Source: Halomonas piscis | GTDB taxonomy: Bacteria; Pseudomonadota; Gammaproteobacteria; Pseudomonadales; Halomonadaceae | Length of the DNA: 64,000 nt | NCBI RefSeq assembly: GCF_031886125.1 | Contig: NZ_CP119391.1 | Span: 496,001 to 560,000, forward strand | Direction: 5' to 3' | Shown here: positions 7,896 through 20,214 of the stretch, piece after piece | Layout: the number at the start of each line of letters is the position of its first letter | Numbering within the stretch: the first letter of the stretch is position 1 | Program-made: the position numbers and the translations under genes | Notes under the pieces: generated by a model | Told to the model about the DNA's origin: nothing | Databases searched by the model: none | What the model saw: the letters and a program-made list of their open reading frames with translations, nothing else

Positions 7896-8035
7896 AAACG
7901 CAGCGAGGGAATTGTCCAGCGGCTTTTCTCTCGCCCCGCAGCCGTACCCACGGCGAAAGCATGATACGCATCAATGGTCGGGGATGAAGGGAAGTGCTTA
8001 GATGGAGGGAACTACGCGACAGCAGGGATGCATCA

Positions 8036-10696
8036 ATGCCGTATTTTTTATATTGGGGTAAAGCTGCCTCTGACGATGGTAAAGCCGAGTGCCATTTGCT
8101 GCCTTATCACAGCCTGGACGTCGCCGCCGTAGGCTGGTGTTTGCTGGCACCGGACACAGAGCTAACTCGGCAGCTGGCGGCTCGGCTGGGGCTTGAGCCA
8201 GAAGCGTTGCGCCAACTGCTGGTTTTCTGGCTCGGGGTTCATGATCTGGGCAAGTTCTCTCGGGCGTTTCAGGGGCTTTTTCAGCCATCGCGTACTGGAC
8301 TGGTGCCGATAGTGAACGCACCCGCCTACACCGAACGGCATGACTGTTTGGGGGCTGTGCTTTGGCAGGAAAACTGGATCGAATGGCTCAGGGACGGCAC
8401 CTTGCAATGGCCATCCGGCCGGTTGGGGCGTGAACAACGCCATCAGCTCAGCGAGACACTGAGTATTTTATCCACGCCTTTCTTCGGCCATCACGGCAAG
8501 CCGGTAGAAAGCGGCCAGTGCCGAGGCGAGCAGTTTTTCATCAGTGATGACGTAGTCGATGATACCGAGGCCGCTCGGCAGTTTATTGCCGACTGGGCAG
8601 ATATTGTCTCGCCGGTTTGGGCCGTGGATAAGCTGACGTCTCCCGAATGGCGGGGCGCGCTACAAGCGTTAAGCTGGACCGTTGCCGGCTGGGCCACGCT
8701 CAGCGACTGGCTGGGCTCCAGCCGCGAGTATTTCCCGTATTGCCAGAAGCGCGTGCCGCTAGCGGAGTATTGGCCACTGGCGCTATCCCGCGCCAGGGCC
8801 GTGCTTGAAGGAACAGGCTTTGCATCACGGCCCCAGGCACTACCGTACCGGGGCATGGATAGCTGGTTTGGCGGTGCCACTATAACGCCAACTCCTTTGC
8901 AAAAAGCGGCAGAAGAGCTGGTGCTTTCCGACGGTCCCCAGCTGTGCATTCTTGAAGACGTGACTGGGGCAGGCAAGACTGAAGCTGCCGGTATTCTCAC
9001 TCAGCGGCTGTTAGTCGCCGGGCACGGTGACGGCCTGTATTTTGCGTTACCCACCATGGCGACATCCAACGCCATGTATTCCCGAATGGGCAAGCTGCAT
9101 CGCCACTTTTTTACCGCGGATTCTTCGCCCTCGCTGGTGCTGTCCCACGGTGCTCGGGATCTCAACGATGAATTCATGGGCTCGCTGGAAGGTGCCCAGC
9201 CCGAAGACGGCGAATACGCCGCCAACGACATGACCGCTTCCAGCCGGTGTAACCGCTGGCTTGCCGACTCGCGTAAAAAAGCGCTGCTGGCGGATGTGGG
9301 CGTGGGAACGATCGACCAGGTGCTGATGGCGCTGCTGCCTTTCAGGCATCAGTCGCTCCGACTTTACGGACTGGCGCGCAAGGTGCTGGTGGTCGATGAG
9401 GTACATGCGTACGACCATTACATGCAGGGACTGCTGGGGCAGCTATTGACCCACCACGCCCGTCAGGGCGGTAGCGCCATTTTGCTGACGGCCACTCTGC
9501 CATTGCGCATGCGTGATGAGCTGCTGAAAGCTTGGCAAGAAGGCCTGAACGCCGAGCCACAAGGCTCGCGCAAGCAAGAATTCCCGCTATTGACTCATGC
9601 CGGTATTCACGGCGTTACCGAAACGCCGCTGGCCACGCGGCCGGAAGTCGTTCGCTCCGTGAATATCGGCTGGCTAACCGATGAAGAACAGTGCGTGGAC
9701 TCAGTGCTGGCAGCGGTCGAGAGAGGAGAGTGCGTCGCCTGGGTGCGTAACACGGTCGATGATGCCATTCGGGCTTTTGAGGCTATCGAAAAACGCCACC
9801 CGGATGCTGCTCGTTGCCTGCTGTTTCACAGCCGGTTTGCCATGTGCGACCGCCAGCGTATTGAGGCTGATGTCATCCAGCGCCTGGGCAAGCACTCCAC
9901 GCCGGATACTCGCCGCGGCCAGGTGCTCATCAGTACCCAGGTATTTCAGGAATCCCTGGATTGCGACGTGGATCTGATGATCAGCGATATCGCGCCGATT
10001 GACCTGCTGATTCAGCGCGCCGGTCGTTTGCAGCGCCATGCGCGTGGCCCACGTAGAAAGCCGCTATTGCAGGTTCTGGCACCTGAATGGACCGAAGTAC
10101 CGGATGCCGAATGGCTACAGCGGGTGCTACCGGGGACTCAGGCGGTATATCGCGATACGTCGCTCATCTGGCTGACCCAGCGCGTGTTGCGTGAGACCGG
10201 CGTGTTGCGGATGCCGAATGACGCGCGCCATTTGCTGGAAAGCGTTTATGGAGCCGTTATTGATTTGGTGCCCGATGCGCTGCAGGACGCGCGCTTTGAG
10301 CAAAAGGGCATGCAGAAAATGGCGGCTTCCATGGCCAACTTCAACGCGCTCAGGCTTGAAGACGGCTATGTCAGCGGCCATCAGTGGCAGGAAGAGCAGG
10401 AAATCGGCACGCGCCTGATTGACGAGCCGACGGTCAACGTCGCGCTGCTGACGCGCACTGCGGAAGACGGACTGCAACTTTGGGCTGGCGGCGAGCGCCA
10501 CGCAGCTATGCTGAGCCAGGCCAAGCTGCGCCAGAGTCAGGCGGAAAAGTTAGCCATGCCTCCAGCGCGCTATCAGCCGCAGTGGGAAGCATTACAGGAG
10601 CAACACAAGGCGCTGCACTACACGCGCCCCTGGCTGGTTGAAGCGGATGAAAGCTGTACTTACGACCAGAAATGGGGGTTGCGCCTGGGAGTCTAG
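8036..10696 (+). CDS. cas3: type I-E CRISPR helicase-nuclease Cas3
   Basis: 886 aa from ATG 8036, whose N-terminus (PYFLYWGKA... HLLPYHSLDVAAV) matches the type I-E family start; a GTG at 7994 would add 14 residues. HD nuclease motifs are YHSLDVAAV and the diagnostic VHDLGK (around residue 64). SF2 helicase motifs are Walker A VTGAGKTEAA, the DEVH box (VVDEVHAYDHYM), motif III LLTATLP and motif VI IQRAGRLQRH. All key residues are present, so it should be active in degrading DNA after Cascade recruits it. It is separated from casA by 193 bp, so Cas3 and the Cascade genes are probably transcribed separately. Confidence 0.96.
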   Translation: MPYFLYWGKAASDDGKAECHLLPYHSLDVAAVGWCLLAPDTELTRQLAARLGLEPEALRQLLVFWLGVHDLGKFSRAFQGLFQPSRTGLVPIVNAPAYTERHDCLGAVLWQENWIEWLRDGTLQWPSGRLGREQRHQLSETLSILSTPFFGHHGKPVESGQCRGEQFFISDDVVDDTEAARQFIADWADIVSPVWAVDKLTSPEWRGALQALSWTVAGWATLSDWLGSSREYFPYCQKRVPLAEYWPLALSRARAVLEGTGFASRPQALPYRGMDSWFGGATITPTPLQKAAEELVLSDGPQLCILEDVTGAGKTEAAGILTQRLLVAGHGDGLYFALPTMATSNAMYSRMGKLHRHFFTADSSPSLVLSHGARDLNDEFMGSLEGAQPEDGEYAANDMTASSRCNRWLADSRKKALLADVGVGTIDQVLMALLPFRHQSLRLYGLARKVLVVDEVHAYDHYMQGLLGQLLTHHARQGGSAILLTATLPLRMRDELLKAWQEGLNAEPQGSRKQEFPLLTHAGIHGVTETPLATRPEVVRSVNIGWLTDEEQCVDSVLAAVERGECVAWVRNTVDDAIRAFEAIEKRHPDAARCLLFHSRFAMCDRQRIEADVIQRLGKHSTPDTRRGQVLISTQVFQESLDCDVDLMISDIAPIDLLIQRAGRLQRHARGPRRKPLLQVLAPEWTEVPDAEWLQRVLPGTQAVYRDTSLIWLTQRVLRETGVLRMPNDARHLLESVYGAVIDLVPDALQDARFEQKGMQKMAASMANFNALRLEDGYVSGHQWQEEQEIGTRLIDEPTVNVALLTRTAEDGLQLWAGGERHAAMLSQAKLRQSQAEKLAMPPARYQPQWEALQEQHKALHYTRPWLVEADESCTYDQKWGLRLGV

Positions 10697-10710
10697 GCGA
10701 CTGATTCAGC

Positions 10711-10788
10711 AGGGAAAGCCCCGCTGGCGCGGGGAGCGGATACAAGAACTGTTCTGAACAGGTCCAACGCCGCGGCTGCGGCGAACCG
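10711..10788 (-). ncRNA. candidate Cas-regulating RNA (CreR/CreA-like mini-CRISPR)
   Basis: Two degenerate copies of the local CRISPR repeat lie on the minus strand. Pseudo-repeat 1 (10788 to 10760) aligns to the array repeat at 21 of 28 positions with one inserted T. Pseudo-repeat 2 (10739 to 10711) aligns at 22 of 29. Both keep a 6-bp stem with a 4-nt loop (CGCCGC/GCGGCG with loop AGCC; CCCCGC/GCGGGG with loop GCCA) and 8 nt after the stem, the length of the I-E crRNA handle. Relative to the array stem, repeat 1 swaps one C-G pair for G-C, keeping the hairpin. Between them is a 20-nt pseudo-spacer, GTTCAGAACAGTTCTTGTAT. Processing by Cas6e would give a guide RNA loaded into Cascade. No toxin gene was recognised, so a regulator fits better than a CreTA antitoxin. 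Confidence 0.8.
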
Positions 10789-10794
10789 CGGCAG

Positions 10795-10823
10795 ATTATC
10801 CCCTCAGTTGACAGCCAGCGCAA
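10795..10823 (-). promoter_or_regulatory. promoter for the candidate Cas-regulating RNA
   Basis: Read on the minus strand: TTGCGC, 17 nt, GATAAT (5 of 6 to the -10 consensus). A start 7 nt downstream falls at about 10788, exactly the first base of pseudo-repeat 1. It is interleaved with the casA promoter on the other strand, so the two may compete for polymerase. Confidence 0.6.
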
Positions 10824-10837
10824 AATCCGAGCATACT
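10808..10837 (+). promoter_or_regulatory. casA operon promoter
   Basis: A perfect -35 (TTGACA, 10808-10813), 18 nt, then CATACT (10832-10837) as a -10. A start near 10844 would give a leader of about 46 nt before the casA ATG at 10890. The region downstream (10849-10871) carries the predicted guide target. Confidence 0.65.
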
Positions 10838-10848
10838 CGCTACATAAA

Positions 10849-10871
10849 TAAAAAGATCTGTTATGAACCTT
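10849..10871 (-). promoter_or_regulatory. predicted Cascade autoregulatory target (protospacer plus AAG PAM)
   Basis: On the minus strand, AAG (10871-10869) is followed by GTTCATAACAGATCTTTTTA (10868-10849). Against the pseudo-spacer, positions 1-5, 7-11 and 13-16 match; 6 and 12 mismatch, as do 17, 19 and 20. Type I crRNAs do not pair at every sixth base, so the functional match is complete over the first 16 positions. The site lies just after the casA promoter and overlaps an upstream in-frame ATG at 10863. Confidence 0.78.
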
Positions 10872-10889
10872 AATAAAAAAGGTGTGACT

Positions 10890-12584
10890 ATGAACCTGCT
10901 TAACGGTGCGCGCTGGCTGCCTTGCCTGATGCGCGATGGCTCGGTGGAGTACCGGCCGCCAGCGGATATGGCCCATCCGGACGTGATTAACCTGGCTTGC
11001 CCTCGGGCAGATTTTCAGGCGGGGGCCTATCAGTTCCTGCTGGGCCTTTTGCAAACAGCGCTGCCGCTTGCCGATCACGGCGAGTGGCTGGACTACCTGA
11101 TTGAGCCGCCCAGACCAGACACGCTACAGAAAGCGTTTGCGCCGCTGGAAAGCGCCTTTGAGCTGGACGGTGACGGCCCGCGCTTTATGCAGGATCTGGA
11201 CCCGCTGGATGACGTCAAGGACACCTCCGTCAGTGCCCTGCTGATTGACTCTCCCGGTGCAAGCACCATTACGAAAAATATAGACTTGTTCGTCAAGCGA
11301 GGGCGCGTGGATGCGATGTGCGAGGCCTGCGCGGCGCTGGCGCTGTTTACCATGCAGGTGAACGCCCCGGCCGGTGGGGCCGGCATTCGAGTAGGGTTAA
11401 GGGGCGGCGGGCCGCTGACCACGCTGGTGATGCCGGAGTCCGCCGATGCAACCTTGTGGCAGCGCCTGTGGCTCAACGTGCTTCCCTCGAGCAGGCTGGT
11501 CCAGCAAGGGCAGCGCTGGACCGAGCCGCGTTCTGACGATCCCGACCTATTTTTCTGGATAGCCGATACCCGCATCAGCGATAAAAAGGGCACCGAAGTA
11601 TTGCCCGAACATGTGCATCCCTTGCATGCCTACTGGTCAGTGCCTCGTCGTTTTCGGCTGCTGATTGAGCCGGATAAATGTTCGTGTGACCTGTGCGGGC
11701 GCGAAACCGATCGGATAGTGCGGCAGGTGCGCGGTAAAAAGCAGGGTGCCAATTACGATGGCCCTTGGCAGCACCCGCTGACGCCGTACCGGCGTGACCC
11801 CAAAAAGCCGGCAGAGCTTCCCCTGTCACAAAAAGGCCAGCCAAGCGGGCTGGGCTACCGCCACTGGCCGGGCCTTGTGCTGAATGATCCTGAAGGCAGC
11901 GGCACAATGCCCGCTGCCGTAGTGCTGGACTACATCAACCACAAACAAAAGCTGGTCGACGAAGAGCGCCGCTGGGGCGAAGACGTACAGGCGCTGCTAA
12001 AGCAGATGCGTCTATGGATCTCCGGTTATGACCTGGATAAGGGAAAGACGCGCGGCTGGTACAGCGTGGAGATGCCGCTGGTGGAGCTGCCTGAATCGAG
12101 CCAGGACATCCTGCGGGAATGGGTTCAGCAGTTGACCGGGCTTGCCCAGCAGGTGGCCAGCGCCACACGCAATCAGATCAAGGCTGCGTGGTTCAAGCGT
12201 CTTGCCGATGCCAAGGGCGACATGAGTCAGGTCGACAAGCAGTTTTTCTCGGCCACCCACGATGCCTTTTTCCATACGGTGTCACGCCTGACTGCCATCT
12301 TGCAGGAAAAAGCAGAGACGACTGTCATGCCGGCGGACATTGCCCAGAGTTGGTATTTGGTGCTGCGCCGCGAAGCGCTCGCGCTATTTGACGATCAGGC
12401 GCTGAGCGGTGCCCAGGAAAACATGAACTGGCAGCGTGCGACGGATGCCCGCCGCCAGCTGCAAGGCTTTTTAAGTGGGAGAAGCAAAGGCAGCAAGGCC
12501 GTCAAGGATTTCATCAGCCAGCACGGTTTTGCGCCAACGGCCCAAACAGAGAAGTCACCGTTAACCCAAGGAGGTGCGGCATGA
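10890..12584 (+). CDS. casA: Cascade large subunit Cas8e (Cse1/CasA)
   Basis: 564 aa. The N-terminus MNLLNGARWLPCLMRDGSVEYRPPADM is typical for Cse1. The ATG at 10890 follows AAGGTG and fits the family start; the frame extends to an ATG at 10863 that lies inside the predicted guide target. A zinc-finger-like set of cysteines occurs near residue 260 (CSCDLCGRE), as in part of the family. The protein reads the PAM and recruits Cas3. Its 3' end overlaps casB by 4 bp (ATGA), so the five Cascade genes are one transcription unit. Confidence 0.95.
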   Translation: MNLLNGARWLPCLMRDGSVEYRPPADMAHPDVINLACPRADFQAGAYQFLLGLLQTALPLADHGEWLDYLIEPPRPDTLQKAFAPLESAFELDGDGPRFMQDLDPLDDVKDTSVSALLIDSPGASTITKNIDLFVKRGRVDAMCEACAALALFTMQVNAPAGGAGIRVGLRGGGPLTTLVMPESADATLWQRLWLNVLPSSRLVQQGQRWTEPRSDDPDLFFWIADTRISDKKGTEVLPEHVHPLHAYWSVPRRFRLLIEPDKCSCDLCGRETDRIVRQVRGKKQGANYDGPWQHPLTPYRRDPKKPAELPLSQKGQPSGLGYRHWPGLVLNDPEGSGTMPAAVVLDYINHKQKLVDEERRWGEDVQALLKQMRLWISGYDLDKGKTRGWYSVEMPLVELPESSQDILREWVQQLTGLAQQVASATRNQIKAAWFKRLADAKGDMSQVDKQFFSATHDAFFHTVSRLTAILQEKAETTVMPADIAQSWYLVLRREALALFDDQALSGAQENMNWQRATDARRQLQGFLSGRSKGSKAVKDFISQHGFAPTAQTEKSPLTQGGAA

Positions 12585-13243
12585 GTGAAGCATCCGAAGC
12601 CGATAGCTCACAGGAATGGCTTGTTGTCGATGATCAGGAGCTCAAGTCGCTGGCGGCACTGTCGCTTGATGAAGCCGTTGCCGTGCGCCGCTGGTGGCAG
12701 CGGCTTGCGCTTTCACCGGTGGAGCTTAAACAGCTGACGCCCCAGCCAGGATTACCCCGAGGCGTGCGAGCCGCCCTGCGCCGCTGCGATACGCCCGATG
12801 CCGCGCTGCTGACTCAGGCCTTTCGCGAGCTGTGGCACCTACTGCCAGAGGCCACGGTTGAGTCGCCCTTTATTGAGGCTCAGCTGGAAAAATGGAGCTG
12901 TATCGCGCTGGTGCTAGCCGAGCTGCGCAACGAAACGCCGGGTAAAGCTCTGGCCGCGCGACTTGGGCAACAAGCATCTACCGGCAAGCCCATCATGAGC
13001 GAGCTGCGCTTCCAGCAAATCCTCACCTGCCGCACGCCGGAAGAGCTGGTGCAGCGGCTAAGGCGCGCGCTGGCGCTGGCCGGACGCAGCGAGATGAGCG
13101 CCGTTCGGCTGGCCGACGTTGTTGCTTTGTGGTGGCGGGAGTATAGCGGCGAGATTTCGGCGCGGCCGACTCATCGCTTCGGCTTCATGCTGGCCAACGA
13201 CTATTTCGGCGCTGCGGCGAGCTATCGCCATGAAGACACGTAA
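12581..13243 (+). CDS. casB: Cascade small subunit Cse2 (CasB, Cas11e)
   Basis: 220 aa and mostly helical, with the family motifs AVRRWWQRLALSP near the N-terminus, GVRAALRRCDTPDAALLTQAFRELW, and a C-terminal block RLADVVALWWREYS. It starts with an ATGA overlap with casA and has GGAGGT upstream. Two copies form the belly of Cascade and stabilise the R-loop. Confidence 0.93.
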   Translation: MSEASEADSSQEWLVVDDQELKSLAALSLDEAVAVRRWWQRLALSPVELKQLTPQPGLPRGVRAALRRCDTPDAALLTQAFRELWHLLPEATVESPFIEAQLEKWSCIALVLAELRNETPGKALAARLGQQASTGKPIMSELRFQQILTCRTPEELVQRLRRALALAGRSEMSAVRLADVVALWWREYSGEISARPTHRFGFMLANDYFGAAASYRHEDT

Positions 13244-13300
13244 TCCGCTGCCGCGGTGAAGCACCATGACGTTATTTTTTTATTTTACAGGAAGGGAATC

Positions 13301-14389
13301 ATGAGCCACTTCATCCAACTCCACCTGCTGACCTCCTACCCGCCGGCCAACCTGAACCGGGACGATCTGGGCCGCCCTAAAACCGCGCTGATGGGCGGAG
13401 CCAAGCGGCTACGGGTGTCTTCGCAGAGCCTCAAGCGCACCTGGCGCACCTCTAATCTGTTCGAAGAGGCGCTGGCCGGCCATGTGGGTACCCGTACCAA
13501 GCGGCTAGGCAAGGAAGTTTACGATCAGCTGACCAAGCAGGGCGTCAAGGAAAAAACCGCTATCGCCAGCGCAGAAAAAATTGCCGGCGTATTCGGCAAG
13601 CTGCGCAAGGTAGGCAAGGGCGAAGCCCACGAGTTTGAAATCGAGCAGCTGGTACACGTCGGGCCGGAAGAGCGGGAAGCGGTCAATCAGCTAATTACCA
13701 CCCTGGCGGCTGAAAATCGTGAGCCGGAAGACAGCGAGCTCAAGCTTTTGCGCCACAGGCCCGCCGCGGCAGACGTAGCGCTGTTTGGCCGCATGCTGGC
13801 CGCCGTGCCCGAATACAACGTGGATGCCGCGTGCCAAGTAGCTCATGCGATTACCGTGCATGCCGCCGAGGTGGAAGATGACTACTTCACCGCCGTGGAT
13901 GACTTGAACATGGGCGACGAAGACCGCGGCGCGGCCCACATCGGCGAAGCTGGCTTCGGTGCCGGGCTGTTTTATACCTATCTCTGCATTGATCGCCGCC
14001 AGCTGGTCGAAAACCTGAACAATAACCAAGAGCTGGCTGACAAGGCGATTGCCGCTCTGGTCGAAGCAGCGGTGAAAACCTCACCCAAGGGCAAGCAGAA
14101 CAGCTTTGGCTCGCGGGCGCATGCGAGCTACGTGCTGGCCGAGAAGGGTAATCAGCAGCCGCGCTCGCTTTCCATGGCGTATCTGCGCCCGGTCAACGGG
14201 CAGGATCAGTCCCTGGATGCCATCCAGCGGCTTGAGGTCCAGGCCCAGGCGTTTGATAACGCTTACGGTGACGGCGCTGACAGCCGGTTTGTTGTGTCCG
14301 CCGAGCCTGCCTATAGCGCTCCGCAACTGTCCGGTGACGTAACGCAGGGAAGCCTCGATGAGCTGCTCGCTTTTCTGCGTGACCAGTAA
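13301..14389 (+). CDS. cas7e: Cascade backbone subunit Cas7e (Cse4/CasC)
   Basis: 362 aa from the ATG at 13301, which has AGGAAGGG upstream. The N-terminal signature SHFIQLHLLTSYPPANLNRDDLGRPKTALMGGAKRLRVSSQSLKRTWR is that of type I-E Cas7. Six copies coat the crRNA, and their thumbs cause the one-in-six base flipping used to interpret the self-target at 10849. The frame could be extended to a GTG at 13256, but that start lacks support. Confidence 0.95.
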   Translation: MSHFIQLHLLTSYPPANLNRDDLGRPKTALMGGAKRLRVSSQSLKRTWRTSNLFEEALAGHVGTRTKRLGKEVYDQLTKQGVKEKTAIASAEKIAGVFGKLRKVGKGEAHEFEIEQLVHVGPEEREAVNQLITTLAAENREPEDSELKLLRHRPAAADVALFGRMLAAVPEYNVDAACQVAHAITVHAAEVEDDYFTAVDDLNMGDEDRGAAHIGEAGFGAGLFYTYLCIDRRQLVENLNNNQELADKAIAALVEAAVKTSPKGKQNSFGSRAHASYVLAEKGNQQPRSLSMAYLRPVNGQDQSLDAIQRLEVQAQAFDNAYGDGADSRFVVSAEPAYSAPQLSGDVTQGSLDELLAFLRDQ

Positions 14390-14401: not shown

Positions 14402-15154
14402 ATGACGGACTATCTGGTATTTCGGCTATACGCCCCCCTGGCAAGCTGGGGGGAGGCCGCCGTGGGAGAGACCCGACCCACGGCCTCCTATCCGGGCAAA
14501 AGCGCACTGCTGGGGCTGGTGGGCGCGGCGCTGGGCATTCGCCGTGATGACGATGCCGGGCAAAAAGCCCTGCGCGAAGGCCTGGCATTCGGGGTAAAGC
14601 AGCGCTCTTCGGGCACGTTGATGCGTGACTACCACACGGTGCAGGTGCCGCCGGCAAAAGCGAAGGTGCGCTACAGCACCCGCAAGGACGAGTTGAGCAT
14701 CCCGAAGGGGGATCTCAACACGATTCTTTCGGCGCGGGATTACCGTTGCGACGGGCTCTGGAACGTCGCGTGCTGGCTCAAGCCCGGTGCAGCCTGGACA
14801 CTGGCGGAGCTTCGCCAGGCGCTGGAAAGGCCGTATTTTTGTCTCTATCTCGGGCGCAAGGCTTGCCCGCCGGCAGTGCCGCTGTCGCCGATAGTTGTTG
14901 CCTGTGAAACGCTGAAAGATGCGCTGGACAGCGAGTTTCCCCCGCTGAACGGCCGCAGCGACGCCGGTGAAAAAGCGTTACGGCCCTCGAAGCGTGCCCT
15001 GTACGCTTGGGAAGGAGAGATCCATCGCCTTGACGGTAGCGCCGAGGGCGTAGAGCACAACGATATTTGGGACATGCCGCTTAACCGCCGCCGCTGGCAG
15101 TTTGGCCCCAGGCTCGAGTATCGGCGAGTCATGCAAGACAAGGAGGGCCGCTAA
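14402..15154 (+). CDS. cas5e: Cascade subunit Cas5e (CasD)
   Basis: 250 aa. The RAMP-type N-terminus DYLVFRLYAPLASWGEAAVGETRPTASYPGKSALLGLVGAALGI is diagnostic; TRPTASYPGKSALLGL is the conserved core. It caps the 5' handle of the crRNA. Its stop overlaps the cas6e start as TAATG, which couples their translation. Confidence 0.94.
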   Translation: MTDYLVFRLYAPLASWGEAAVGETRPTASYPGKSALLGLVGAALGIRRDDDAGQKALREGLAFGVKQRSSGTLMRDYHTVQVPPAKAKVRYSTRKDELSIPKGDLNTILSARDYRCDGLWNVACWLKPGAAWTLAELRQALERPYFCLYLGRKACPPAVPLSPIVVACETLKDALDSEFPPLNGRSDAGEKALRPSKRALYAWEGEIHRLDGSAEGVEHNDIWDMPLNRRRWQFGPRLEYRRVMQDKEGR

Positions 15155-15843
15155 TGTATCTTTCGCGCGTCAAGGTCGATTTGAACGCTCTCTCCCGCAC
15201 TATGCTGTTCAATGTCATGGCCGGGGAGGCTTATAGCGCTCACCAGCTTTTGTGGCAGCTGTTTCCCGAGCATGTTGGAGAACGCCCGTTTCTGTTTCGT
15301 CAGGAAATGGACGAAACCGAGCATGAGGCGATACCCAAGGGACTGCCGCTTTTTTATGTACTGTCATCGAGGGAGCCGGTGCCGGTTGAAGGGTTGTTAA
15401 GCGTAGACAGCAAGCCGTTTGCTCCCGCATTGCAGCCGGGTGACCGGCTAGCGTTTCGGCTGCGTGCCAATCCGACAATCGCCAAGGCGGAAAAAGGCAA
15501 GCGTGGGCATCGAGCCGATGTCTTGATGGCCGCCAAAAAGCCGTTTTCACGCGAACAGCGCAAAAGCGTGGAATGCCGGCAAGCCATGGACGATGCGGCC
15601 CGTGCCTGGCTCACGCAGCGTGCCGAAAGTGCCGGCTTTACCCTGCCCGTGGAGCCCGAGCTGGGAGCCTATCGTCAGCATGTGCTGAACAAGGGCAGCG
15701 GCCAGCGCGTGCAGTTTTCAACGGTAGACTATGAAGGCCTGCTGGAGGTGCAGGATCCTGTCGTTTTCAAGCATACGCTGGCCAACGGGCTGGGCCGGGC
15801 CAAGGCGTTTGGTTGCGGGCTTTTCTTACTTCGTCGCCCTTAG
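15154..15843 (+). CDS. cas6e: CRISPR RNA endoribonuclease Cas6e (Cse3/CasE)
   Basis: 229 aa. The N-terminus MYLSRVKVDLNA... GEAYSAHQLLWQLFP carries the catalytic-type histidine in YSAHQLLW (equivalent to His26 of the E. coli protein) with a tyrosine just before it. The glycine-rich C-terminus ANGLGRAKAFGCGLFLLRR is the usual RNA-binding loop. It cuts at the base of the repeat hairpin and leaves an 8-nt 5' handle; the two pseudo-repeats at 10711-10788 keep both features. Confidence 0.94.
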   Translation: MYLSRVKVDLNALSRTMLFNVMAGEAYSAHQLLWQLFPEHVGERPFLFRQEMDETEHEAIPKGLPLFYVLSSREPVPVEGLLSVDSKPFAPALQPGDRLAFRLRANPTIAKAEKGKRGHRADVLMAAKKPFSREQRKSVECRQAMDDAARAWLTQRAESAGFTLPVEPELGAYRQHVLNKGSGQRVQFSTVDYEGLLEVQDPVVFKHTLANGLGRAKAFGCGLFLLRRP

Positions 15844-15858: not shown

Positions 15859-17074
<1,216 letters not shown>

Positions 17075-17184: not shown

Positions 17185-17945
17185 CCGGTCCCCGCACCCG
17201 CGGGGCTGATCCGATGCTGGCCGACATTGAGCGTAAGCACGGTCACCGGTCCCCGCACCCGCGGGGCTGATCCGGTGTGGTGCTGGTGTTTGCGGCGGCG
17301 GGCACCCCGGTCCCCGCACCCGCGGGGCTGATCCGATAGAAATAGGCGTTTGCAGGCTGACCAGTTCCCGGTCCCCGCACCCGCGGGGCTGATCCGGCGG
17401 GAAACACCACGCTCTGCCCCAACACCTCCCGGTCCCCGCACCCGCGGGGCTGATCCGCTGGATGGTGTCGGTGAAAACAGAATCACGGTCCGGTCCCCGC
17501 ACCCGCGGGGCTGATCCGGGCGCGGTGATCGTGCCAGAGCGCGACTATGCCCGGTCCCCGCACCCGCGGGGCTGATCCGGCGCTTTGCTCGTCGTTTGTA
17601 CGATTTCTCGCCCGGTCCCCGCACCCGCGGGGCTGATCCGAACGCGGCATGCTCGATCTCGGCGCGGGCCTGCCGGTCCCCGCACCCGCGGGGCTGATCC
17701 GAGATCCAGCGCCTTGGTCGCCGCCGTGAAAGCCCGGTCCCCGCACCCGCGGGGCTGATCCGATCATTTCCTCAAACACAAACGGGTTGATGTTCCGGTC
17801 CCCGCACCCGCGGGGCTGATCCGATCTACCAGGGCAAGGTGCGCCCGGTGGTTGACCGGTCCCCGCACCCGCGGGGCTGATCCGTACGAGACCGCCAAGC
17901 TGGACGAGGAGTAACCCCGGTCCCCGCACCCGCGGGGCTGATCCG

Positions 17946-18221
17946 AGAGGGTCCACAGGGAGAGGCCGGTTCTATGGCCGGTCCCCGCACCCGCGGGGCT
18001 GATCCGATCACCGGTCAGGTCACGTTCATGGGCACCGACCGGTCCCCGCACCCGCGGGGCTGATCCGCGCGCCATTGGCCACCGCAGCATCAATAAACGC
18101 CGGTCCCCGCACCCGCGGGGCTGATCCGTCGCTACCATGCTCGATGCGCGACACCCTGCACCGGTCCCCGCACCCGCGGGGCTGATCCGCAGGAGCCCAT
18201 CCATACCAGCACCGGCCTGAC
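17946..18221 (+). repeat. five-spacer block, copy 1
   Basis: Five successive spacers (starting at 17946, 18007, 18068, 18129, 18190) recur unchanged and in the same order at 18312-18587. The copies are offset by 366 bp, that is six repeat units, and are separated by one unique spacer (18251-18282). Confidence 0.95.
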
Positions 18222-18311
18222 CCGGTCCCCGCACCCGCGGGGCTGATCCAGGTATCCCCCGTGTGACCACCATTGGCGGTACCCGGTCCCCGCACCCGCG
18301 GGGCTGATCCG

Positions 18312-18587
18312 AGAGGGTCCACAGGGAGAGGCCGGTTCTATGGCCGGTCCCCGCACCCGCGGGGCTGATCCGATCACCGGTCAGGTCACGTTCATGGGCA
18401 CCGACCGGTCCCCGCACCCGCGGGGCTGATCCGCGCGCCATTGGCCACCGCAGCATCAATAAACGCCGGTCCCCGCACCCGCGGGGCTGATCCGTCGCTA
18501 CCATGCTCGATGCGCGACACCCTGCACCGGTCCCCGCACCCGCGGGGCTGATCCGCAGGAGCCCATCCATACCAGCACCGGCCTGAC
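18312..18587 (+). repeat. five-spacer block, copy 2
   Basis: Identical to 17946-18221. It is followed by a different spacer (18617-18648) which is itself repeated in tandem at 18678-18709, so the array has recombined between repeats more than once. Confidence 0.95.
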
Positions 18588-20214
18588 CCGGTCCCCGCAC
18601 CCGCGGGGCTGATCCGGGGTAGGCTCAGGCTGGCCTATAGCTGAAACCCCGGTCCCCGCACCCGCGGGGCTGATCCGGGGTAGGCTCAGGCTGGCCTATA
18701 GCTGAAACCCCGGTCCCCGCACCCGCGGGGCTGATCCGGCTTAACCGTCACGCTGAACGGGCTCCCAGCCCCGGTCCCCGCACCCGCGGGGCTGATCCGT
18801 TGACTCAGGCCGTCAAGGTGGGCTCGGCAACCCGGTCCCCGCACCCGCGGGGCTGATCCGTAGGTCTGGGAAGCGAAGTCGAGGAGCATGGACCGGTCCC
18901 CGCACCCGCGGGGCTGATCCGATCGCCCGCATGGAGGCCACCCAATGAGCATCCCGGTCCCCGCACCCGCGGGGCTGATCCGCATGATTCCATTGTGGAG
19001 ACGGGCGCTGCTGCCCGGTCCCCGCACCCGCGGGGCTGATCCGCACCGGCTCGACCATAGGCGGGCTGGCCGGCACCGGTCCCCGCACCCGCGGGGCTGA
19101 TCCGCGCCAGCCCTTGCCGTCCAGCGTCACCACGTCCCGGTCCCCGCACCCGCGGGGCTGATCCGCAGTGAGGTGAGGAGCGGGTCGGGGCGGGCGTTCC
19201 GGTCCCCGCACCCGCGGGGCTGATCCGCGAAGAGTGCTCAGTCGTGCCGATAAATAGCGCCGGTCCCCGCACCCGCGGGGCTGATCCGGCTGACACGGTA
19301 GAGAGCGAGACCGAGTATCACCGGTCCCCGCACCCGCGGGGCTGATCCGATGACGCCCCCGCTTGGGCGGCGGGGGATTACCCGGTCCCCGCACCCGCGG
19401 GGCTGATCCGCGACGCACCTGGTCGGAATGCGTGAGGCGTTCCCGGTCCCCGCACCCGCGGGGCTGATCCGCTGCTCGATCATGCTGCTGTCTCCTTTGC
19501 TGTCCGGTCCCCGCACCCGCGGGGCTGATCCGGGATTTTCCGTCAGCAAGTCGTTAACGGTGCTCCGGTCCCCGCACCCGCGGGGCTGATCCGTGATCGT
19601 CTCCGAGCACGCGGAGACTCGCCGCCCGGTCCCCGCACCCGCGGGGCTGATCCGCTATATTGCGCCGTGCTGGCGCGGGGACTGAACCGGTCCCCGCACC
19701 CGCGGGGCTGATCCGTGGCCGCTGCTTTTGCTGCCCATAAATATGCGCCGGTCCCCGCACCCGCGGGGCTGATCCGCTATATTGCGCCGTGCTGGCGCGG
19801 GGACTGAACCGGTCCCCGCACCCGCGGGGCTGATCCGCGCAGGAAACCGCTACAATCGGCTATACGGGCCTGGTCCCCGCACTCGTGGGGATGGACCGTT
19901 GTACGACAGCGGCGGCGCGGTATGCTTGTCTCGATCCTCGCGCTTGCGGGGGTAGCCCGTTTCTATCCACACGGCCAGGGCGGGTCGCGAAGAAGATCCC
20001 TGCATTTGCGGGGTAACAGTTAGTTAGTGCGATTTTGTTGCGTTAGCTCCCACGTGCAATTTTTTTGAGCACCTGAAACAATGTCTGCGTTTTTGCCGCC
20101 TGAACATGTATGGGGCGCTCGGTGGCGGTGTGCTGCAAAATAGTCATCGTCTGCCCGTGGCACCGCGCCCGGCGGCTCTTTTTCAAGCTAAGTGATGCTT
20201 ATCCGGAGACAATA

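Follow-up and report, generated by a model that had tools for sequence, protein, structure and literature searches.

A probable type I-E CreR in Halomonas piscis: a mini-CRISPR in the cas3-casA gap with a predicted target in the casA leader

What is encoded in the gap between cas3 and casA of Halomonas piscis, and what might it do to the Cascade operon that follows? The window, by which we mean the whole stretch of 64,000 nucleotides analysed here (bases 496,001-560,000 of the single-contig, 3,227,066-base genome, NZ_CP119391.1), contains a complete type I-E locus made up of cas3, casA, cse2, cas7, cas5, cas6e, cas1 and cas2 together with a CRISPR array (Table 1). Among named relatives, the closest that we found is Vreelandella jeotgali Hwa, with a CasA that is 82% identical in alignment. 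The array spacers are 32 nt long, except for one of 33 nt. A five-spacer block of the array is duplicated 366 bases downstream (17946-18190 and 18312-18556), two further spacers are present twice (18617/18678 and 19655/19777), and at the far end (19870-20020) the array runs out into degenerate repeats, such as CTGGTCCCCGCACTCGTGGGGATGGACCG at 19870, that fade into unrecognisable copies. We propose that the cas3-casA gap encodes a mini-CRISPR RNA that is likely a type I-E CreR, predicted from the sequence to bring the organism's own Cascade to the casA leader, where it would repress the Cascade operon.

Table 1. Features of the type I-E locus and of its cas3-casA gap, in positions of the window.
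Feature	Position	Strand	Remarks
cas3	7994..10696	+	ORF; TIGR01587 and TIGR01596 above cut-off; PRK09694 under its cut-off
psi-repeat 2 (psiR2), 3' repeat	10739..10711	-	22/29 identical to array repeat; 6-bp stem intact
pseudo-spacer, 20-nt guide	10759..10740	-	GTTCAGAACAGTTCTTGTAT; interval between the psi-repeats
psi-repeat 1 (psiR1), source of 5' handle	10788..10760	-	20/29 identical to array repeat
predicted guide-RNA promoter	10795..10823	-	GATAAT 10800..10795; weak TTGCGC 10823..10818; 17-nt spacing
predicted casA promoter	10808..10837	+	TTGACA - 18 - CATACT; scan, 10/12
target (protospacer)	10868..10849	-	GTTCATAACAGATCTTTTTA; casA leader, about +5 to +24 of the predicted transcript
AAG, type I-E PAM	10871..10869	-	5' of the protospacer; read from the sequence
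casA / cse1 / cas8e, first Cascade gene	10890..12584	+	TIGR02547, 321 bits; frame checked
casB / cse2	12581..13243	+	TIGR02548
casC / cas7e	13295..14389	+	TIGR01869
casD / cas5e	14402..15154	+	TIGR01868
casE / cas6e	15154..15843	+	TIGR01907
cas1e	15859..16776	+	TIGR03638
cas2e	16757..17074	+	TIGR01873
canonical CRISPR array	17185..19898	+	29-nt repeat CCGGTCCCCGCACCCGCGGGGCTGATCCG; 45 repeats, 43 exact; 44 spacers

On the minus strand of the 193-bp gap, two repeat-like 29-mers flank exactly 20 nt. psiR2 is the best match to the array repeat anywhere in the window outside the array itself. In the stem of psiR1, which reads CGCCGC/GCGGCG against CCCCGC/GCGGGG, one pair has been exchanged and 6/6 pairs are kept. 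By our own count the 5' handle, TTGGACCT, shares 4/8 letters with CTGATCCG of the array repeat, and it is more degenerate than the handles of most relatives in the looser list of 22 loci described below. An earlier note on this DNA had argued that the guide register is set by the repeat boundary and is independent of the target, and the two psi-repeat boundaries do enclose exactly the 20 nt claimed. A plus-strand reading of the mini-CRISPR was tried and rejected: the best repeat match on that strand, 15/29, falls short of the 22/29 and 20/29 of the minus strand, and an AAG- or AAA-flanked target for a plus-strand guide occurs in 0/54 family loci. A plasmid search with the casA leader returned no match.

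Which transcripts would this gap produce? A promoter scan of 10600-10920 for casA found one candidate against a shuffle mean of 0.1, and the target begins at about +5 of the predicted transcript, just downstream of the promoter, where the earlier note had put it. The predicted guide RNA would start at about psiR1; its promoter is absent from the calls of the stricter scan. Read from the sequence, casA most likely starts at 10890, after the ribosome site AAGGTG, and the PAM ends 18 bp ahead of it. The ATG at 10863, in frame with casA, lies inside the target. We note that in the interval 10849-10905 this upstream ATG (ATGAACCTTAAT), which the target overlaps, looks like the true start of casA (ATGAACCTGCTTAAC), much as a duplicated start region would.

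How well does the guide fit the leader? Guide and target match at positions 1-5, 7-11, 13-16 and 18 and mismatch at positions 6, 12, 17, 19 and 20, such that 14 of the 15 read positions within 1-17 are matched, and the protospacer is preceded by AAG, the PAM of canonical type I-E. The earlier note had placed this target at 10849-10871, beside an AAG PAM and with mismatches at 6 and 12, and we see the same in the window. The matched positions that it gives, 1-5, 7-11 and 13-16, are confirmed, and position 18 is matched in addition. Its further claim, that such a match is very unlikely to arise by chance, agrees with our controls. As controls, 127,362 further 20-mers from both strands of the window outside the leader were compared with the six AAG-flanked sites of the leader: none reached 14/15, and 47 reached 13/15, of which 46 lie in the CRISPR array, in repeats that resemble the pseudo-repeats, and one elsewhere. 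Similarly, the genome of 3,227,066 bases has a single exact copy of PAM plus seed, AAGGTTCANAACAG, at the casA-leader site, and allowing one mismatch adds only two sites. Beside the guide's own copy the 5' triplet is CCT instead of AAG, so that Cascade should not bind there.

Is the arrangement peculiar to this strain? CasA was found at E <= 1e-20 in 57/275 Halomonas-family genomes; after three with fragmentary casA (G150, G154, G265) were dropped, the family set consisted of 53 fetched loci and the window, 54 in all. The strict scan required two pseudo-repeats, a guide start fixed by psiR1, at least 9/10 seed letters and AAG. Guide candidates with two pseudo-repeats were present on the minus strand in 24/54 loci and on the plus strand in 14/54. 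A minus-strand guide with its own casA-side target was found in 19/54 loci with AAG and in 21/54, the window included, with AAG or AAA; with either PAM setting, the counts for a cas3-side target and for the plus strand were 0/54 each. When all 64 trinucleotides were tried as PAM, AAG gave 19 loci, AAA two, and CCA, CCC and TAG one each. In a crossed control, guides were matched to AAG-flanked sites in the leaders of other genomes in 17/1,272 comparisons, a figure that counts in guide-sharing relatives; a version of the scan requiring one pseudo-repeat gave 17/54 own against 19/2,862 crossed. A looser list (at least 8/10 seed letters, five PAMs allowed) holds 22/54 loci, 20 with AAG and two with AAA, that carry 17 different seeds; in the remaining 32/54 family loci no pair was found even by this list. 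G226 shows the same arrangement by eye and stands outside that count. Guide lengths in the looser list, for which 18-36 nt was allowed, are 20-22 nt in 15/22 loci and 32-33 nt in 7/22, which by our own reasoning suggests a step of two Cas7 units. Promoter scores in these 22 loci exceed those of shuffles modestly (minus strand 8.6 vs 7.3; plus strand 8.4 vs 8.0), and promoters near the target in the relatives show no clear excess over shuffles.

Beyond the family, we sampled the class and found CasA in 23/369 genomes, two of the 23 lying within the family. These 23 loci, 14 from Photorhabdus and Proteus, and L005 and L006 were scanned, 39 in total, and the arrangement was present in 4/39 (L109, L115, L123, L128), in each case on the minus strand, with AAG and with a casA-side target. 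Position 6 is mismatched in 4/4 of these and position 12 in 3/4. None of the 14 Photorhabdus and Proteus CasA loci has a guide-target pair.

With which letters do guide and target keep pace? For a non-circular test, targets were chosen by positions 1-17 weighted equally, with no PAM required and a pass mark of 11/17. The 23/54 loci that pass have AAG in 18 cases, AAA in two and another trinucleotide in three (CGC, CTG, CGA), which may be chance. Among these 23, position 6 is matched in 7/23 and position 12 in 7/23, close to chance, as against 19-23/23 for every other position within 1-11; the count then falls to 12-18/23 for positions 13-17 and down to 4-9/23 for positions 18-24. Read in this way from evolution, the profile is the footprint of type I pairing between guide and target. 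Across 61 pairs of related guides, 221/236 differences in the seed are shared by guide and target, a result for which seed matching was itself a condition of selection, as compared with 7/109 differences at positions 6, 12 and 18, which lie outside the selection. At positions 13-17 only 88/199 guide differences are matched on both sides, and in 28 seed cells the target has changed under the same guide letter. Named examples of the guide-target pairs are those of Halomonas sp. A11-A (L010, G087), TTTGTgTATTC vs TTTGTaTATTC, and of Franzmannia pantelleriensis (L009, G079), TGAGTcGATCC vs TGAGTaGATCC. Likewise, the psiR1 stems are paired in 122/132 cells while their letters change, against a maximum of 108 in 5,000 shuffles. 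The earlier note had proposed that independent divergence of guide and target in related strains would speak against its reading; what we find is co-divergence at the read positions and not at 6, 12 and 18. By a criterion of our own, not taken from the CreR paper, the pairing is under selection (co-variation, with 6 and 12 free), and these natural pairs show, from evolution alone, which positions Cascade reads.

To which known system does the element belong? With a canonical type I-E array it shares the repeat stem, the repeat-spacer-repeat order and the AAG PAM. It differs from such an array, with its near-identical repeats and spacers of about 32 nt, in having degenerate repeats (20/29 and 22/29) around one 20-nt spacer, in lying on the opposite strand, in its chromosomal self-target and in its limited pairing. 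The autorepression of SpyCas9 uses a long-form tracrRNA, an RNA of another kind, and a single-protein class 2 effector, not Cascade. What it has in common with our proposal, as one review presents it, is a Cas effector that represses its own expression and is relieved by anti-CRISPR proteins (PMC13131331). In reviews, CreR is an RNA resembling a crRNA by which Cascade or Cas12a is directed to the promoter of its own cas genes; CreRs are reported for types I-B, I-E and V-A (PMC13131331). The logic proposed for them is autorepression, from which crRNA load or anti-CRISPR proteins would give release (PMC12737573, PMC13131331, PMC12948488). The features that these three reviews give for CreR, a crRNA-like RNA, a partial match to the cas promoter region and generally no toxin, have their counterparts here: psi-repeats and a psi-spacer lie within the cas locus, the target follows closely on the predicted promoter, 21/54 family loci have a casA-side target of their own, and at ORF level there is no coupled toxin gene. 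By these sequence-level features the window element is filed as a further member of the published CreR kind, a comparison made with reviews. Its particulars are a target within the leader, which is transcribed, and a guide of 20 nt against the 32-nt spacers of the array. A search of the non-subscription literature found no CreR case from the Halomonas family.

Could the mini-CRISPR instead be the creA antitoxin of a CreTA-type module, with the leader RNA as toxin and repression of casA as a side effect? Two divergent pseudo-repeats are shared with CreTA, and in the published account of archaeal CreA guide nucleotides 1-5 and 7-11 are needed while 6 and 12 are free (PMC8501985). The Acinetobacter I-F creTA has the same layout, with a 20-nt psiS in divergent orientation in the cas3-csy1 gap, a target downstream of its promoter and, further downstream, a mini-ORF of 33 bp (PMC10097628). 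Moreover, ten relatives have a 32-45-aa ORF with a W-(D/N)-W core that lies between target and casA and often runs into the start of casA (genomes G109, G058, G095, G211, G063, G180, G072, G079, G084 and G024; loci L078, which is that of G058, L073, L093, L103, L088, L087, L091, L058, L097 and L055). G205, G090 and G292 have a basic 39-40-aa ORF (MIFRRYR.TK.GKVLDA... in L074, L080 and L063), and G248 and G245 a 38-aa ORF (M.FR.Y.H.G.GR.IDIKSFRV... in L082 and L094). By analogy with CreTA, these small ORFs may act as guards or toxins. Pfam gave no match for any of the three kinds, each tested by one representative; a protein search with one 43-aa W-(D/N)-W ORF gave no candidate, and one with a 39-aa ORF gave a single hypothetical protein of a Halomonadaceae bacterium. 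The ORFs of L074, L080, L063, L082 and L094 are preceded by a GGCGACGAATCACCGAAC-like stretch that resembles a structured leader; Rfam gave nothing at gathering score for L074, L080 and L094, three of these five loci, or for L078.

In CreTA, however, CreA represses a toxin gene downstream of its target, and a scan of the window leader for ORFs of at least 18 aa, extended to every start codon from the predicted promoter to casA, found no separate toxin ORF: the only starts that give more than two residues in that interval are ATG 10863 and GTG 10884, and both are in the frame of casA. G087, G097, G110 and G111 also have no ORF of at least 18 aa between target and casA. We therefore judge a CreTA-type module to be unlikely here, although its toxin might be a non-coding RNA.

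A second alternative treats the guide as a relic: a self-targeting spacer that was taken up from the casA leader in the past and is now decaying without function. The repeats are degenerate, AAG is what acquisition would select, and V. jeotgali (L008 = G260 = L065) provides an example of natural loss. Its cas3-casA gap is 84 bp as compared with 193 in the window, 109 bp shorter; AAG and the first target letters join the last guide letters and psiR2 in a fused stretch of 20 nt, psiR1 and both promoters are lost, and the psiR2 stem keeps 4/6 pairs. The 109-bp deletion is explained by recombination between the direct repeats of target and guide, whose starts sit 109 bp apart in the window, and casA of V. 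jeotgali would have to be expressed by read-through from cas3. A decaying spacer is nevertheless hard to reconcile with seed letters that co-vary across 17 seed types while 6 and 12 drift, and with psiR1 stems that stay paired, and we consider this explanation quite improbable.

Two further readings can be dealt with briefly. The similar 17-mers 109 bp apart could be two operator sites of a protein regulator, given that the guide is partly palindromic (CTGTTCAGAACAG) with an internal inverted repeat that folds as a small hairpin. This is very improbable, since a protein operator predicts nothing of what the relatives show: unrelated letters at both sites, AAG or AAA next to one of them and a repeat end next to the other, and mismatches with a period of six. 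Only 14 read positions are matched in this one genome, but the probability of a chance match is negligible in view of the control 20-mers, the single exact PAM-seed site and the 21/54 family loci against 0/54 on the other strand.

How would the type I-E CreR that we favour work? The minus strand would be transcribed from the divergent promoter, whose GATAAT lies just upstream of psiR1. Judging by the pairing of their stems, both pseudo-repeats could be cut by Cas6e, and the mature RNA would then load into Cascade. Seated on the first 25 or so transcribed bases of casA, Cascade would block RNA polymerase, and pairing that reaches to about position 16 in a guide of 20 nt, where array spacers have 32 nt, would permit binding without cutting by Cas3. 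This fits the needs of archaeal CreA and the 20-nt psiS of Acinetobacter given above, and also the type I-B system of H. hispanica, in which 24-bp spacers are reported to repress without interference (PMC10989794). Once crRNAs, phage inhibitors or loss of Cascade use up the complex, repression of the operon would end, and Cascade would have a thermostat that adjusts itself. The earlier note had predicted such repression and release without connecting them with CreR. Both repression and release are predicted by analogy with published work on CreA and CreR, as far as these sources describe it (PMC8501985, PMC10097628, PMC12737573, PMC13131331). The pairing needs of a 20-nt guide in I-E Cascade are uncertain, because the Acinetobacter I-F CreA is reported to depart from the archaeal seed rule, with 13-17 also needed and 10 not (PMC10097628), and the window pair is mismatched at 17.

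Finally, we tentatively suggest a possible RNA thermostat that extends through the family. Natural 20-nt guides, two 6-nt Cas7 steps short of array spacers, may build a smaller, binding-only Cascade that is unable to fire Cas3, and in many relatives the same switch may also restrain a small protein of 32-45 aa whose gene immediately precedes casA and which belongs to one of three unnamed kinds, all of them candidate toxins or guards. Short pairing and a short guide would suggest how a permanent self-targeting guide can be carried safely. Because the natural guide-target pairs are diverse in sequence and fixed in layout, in a genome-rich family with named strains, they make the RNA-guided self-control of type I-E Cascade directly testable. 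In relatives, the small proteins are possibly under the same control, and if the thermostat reading is true, a phage inhibitor of Cascade would free both fresh Cascade and the small protein.
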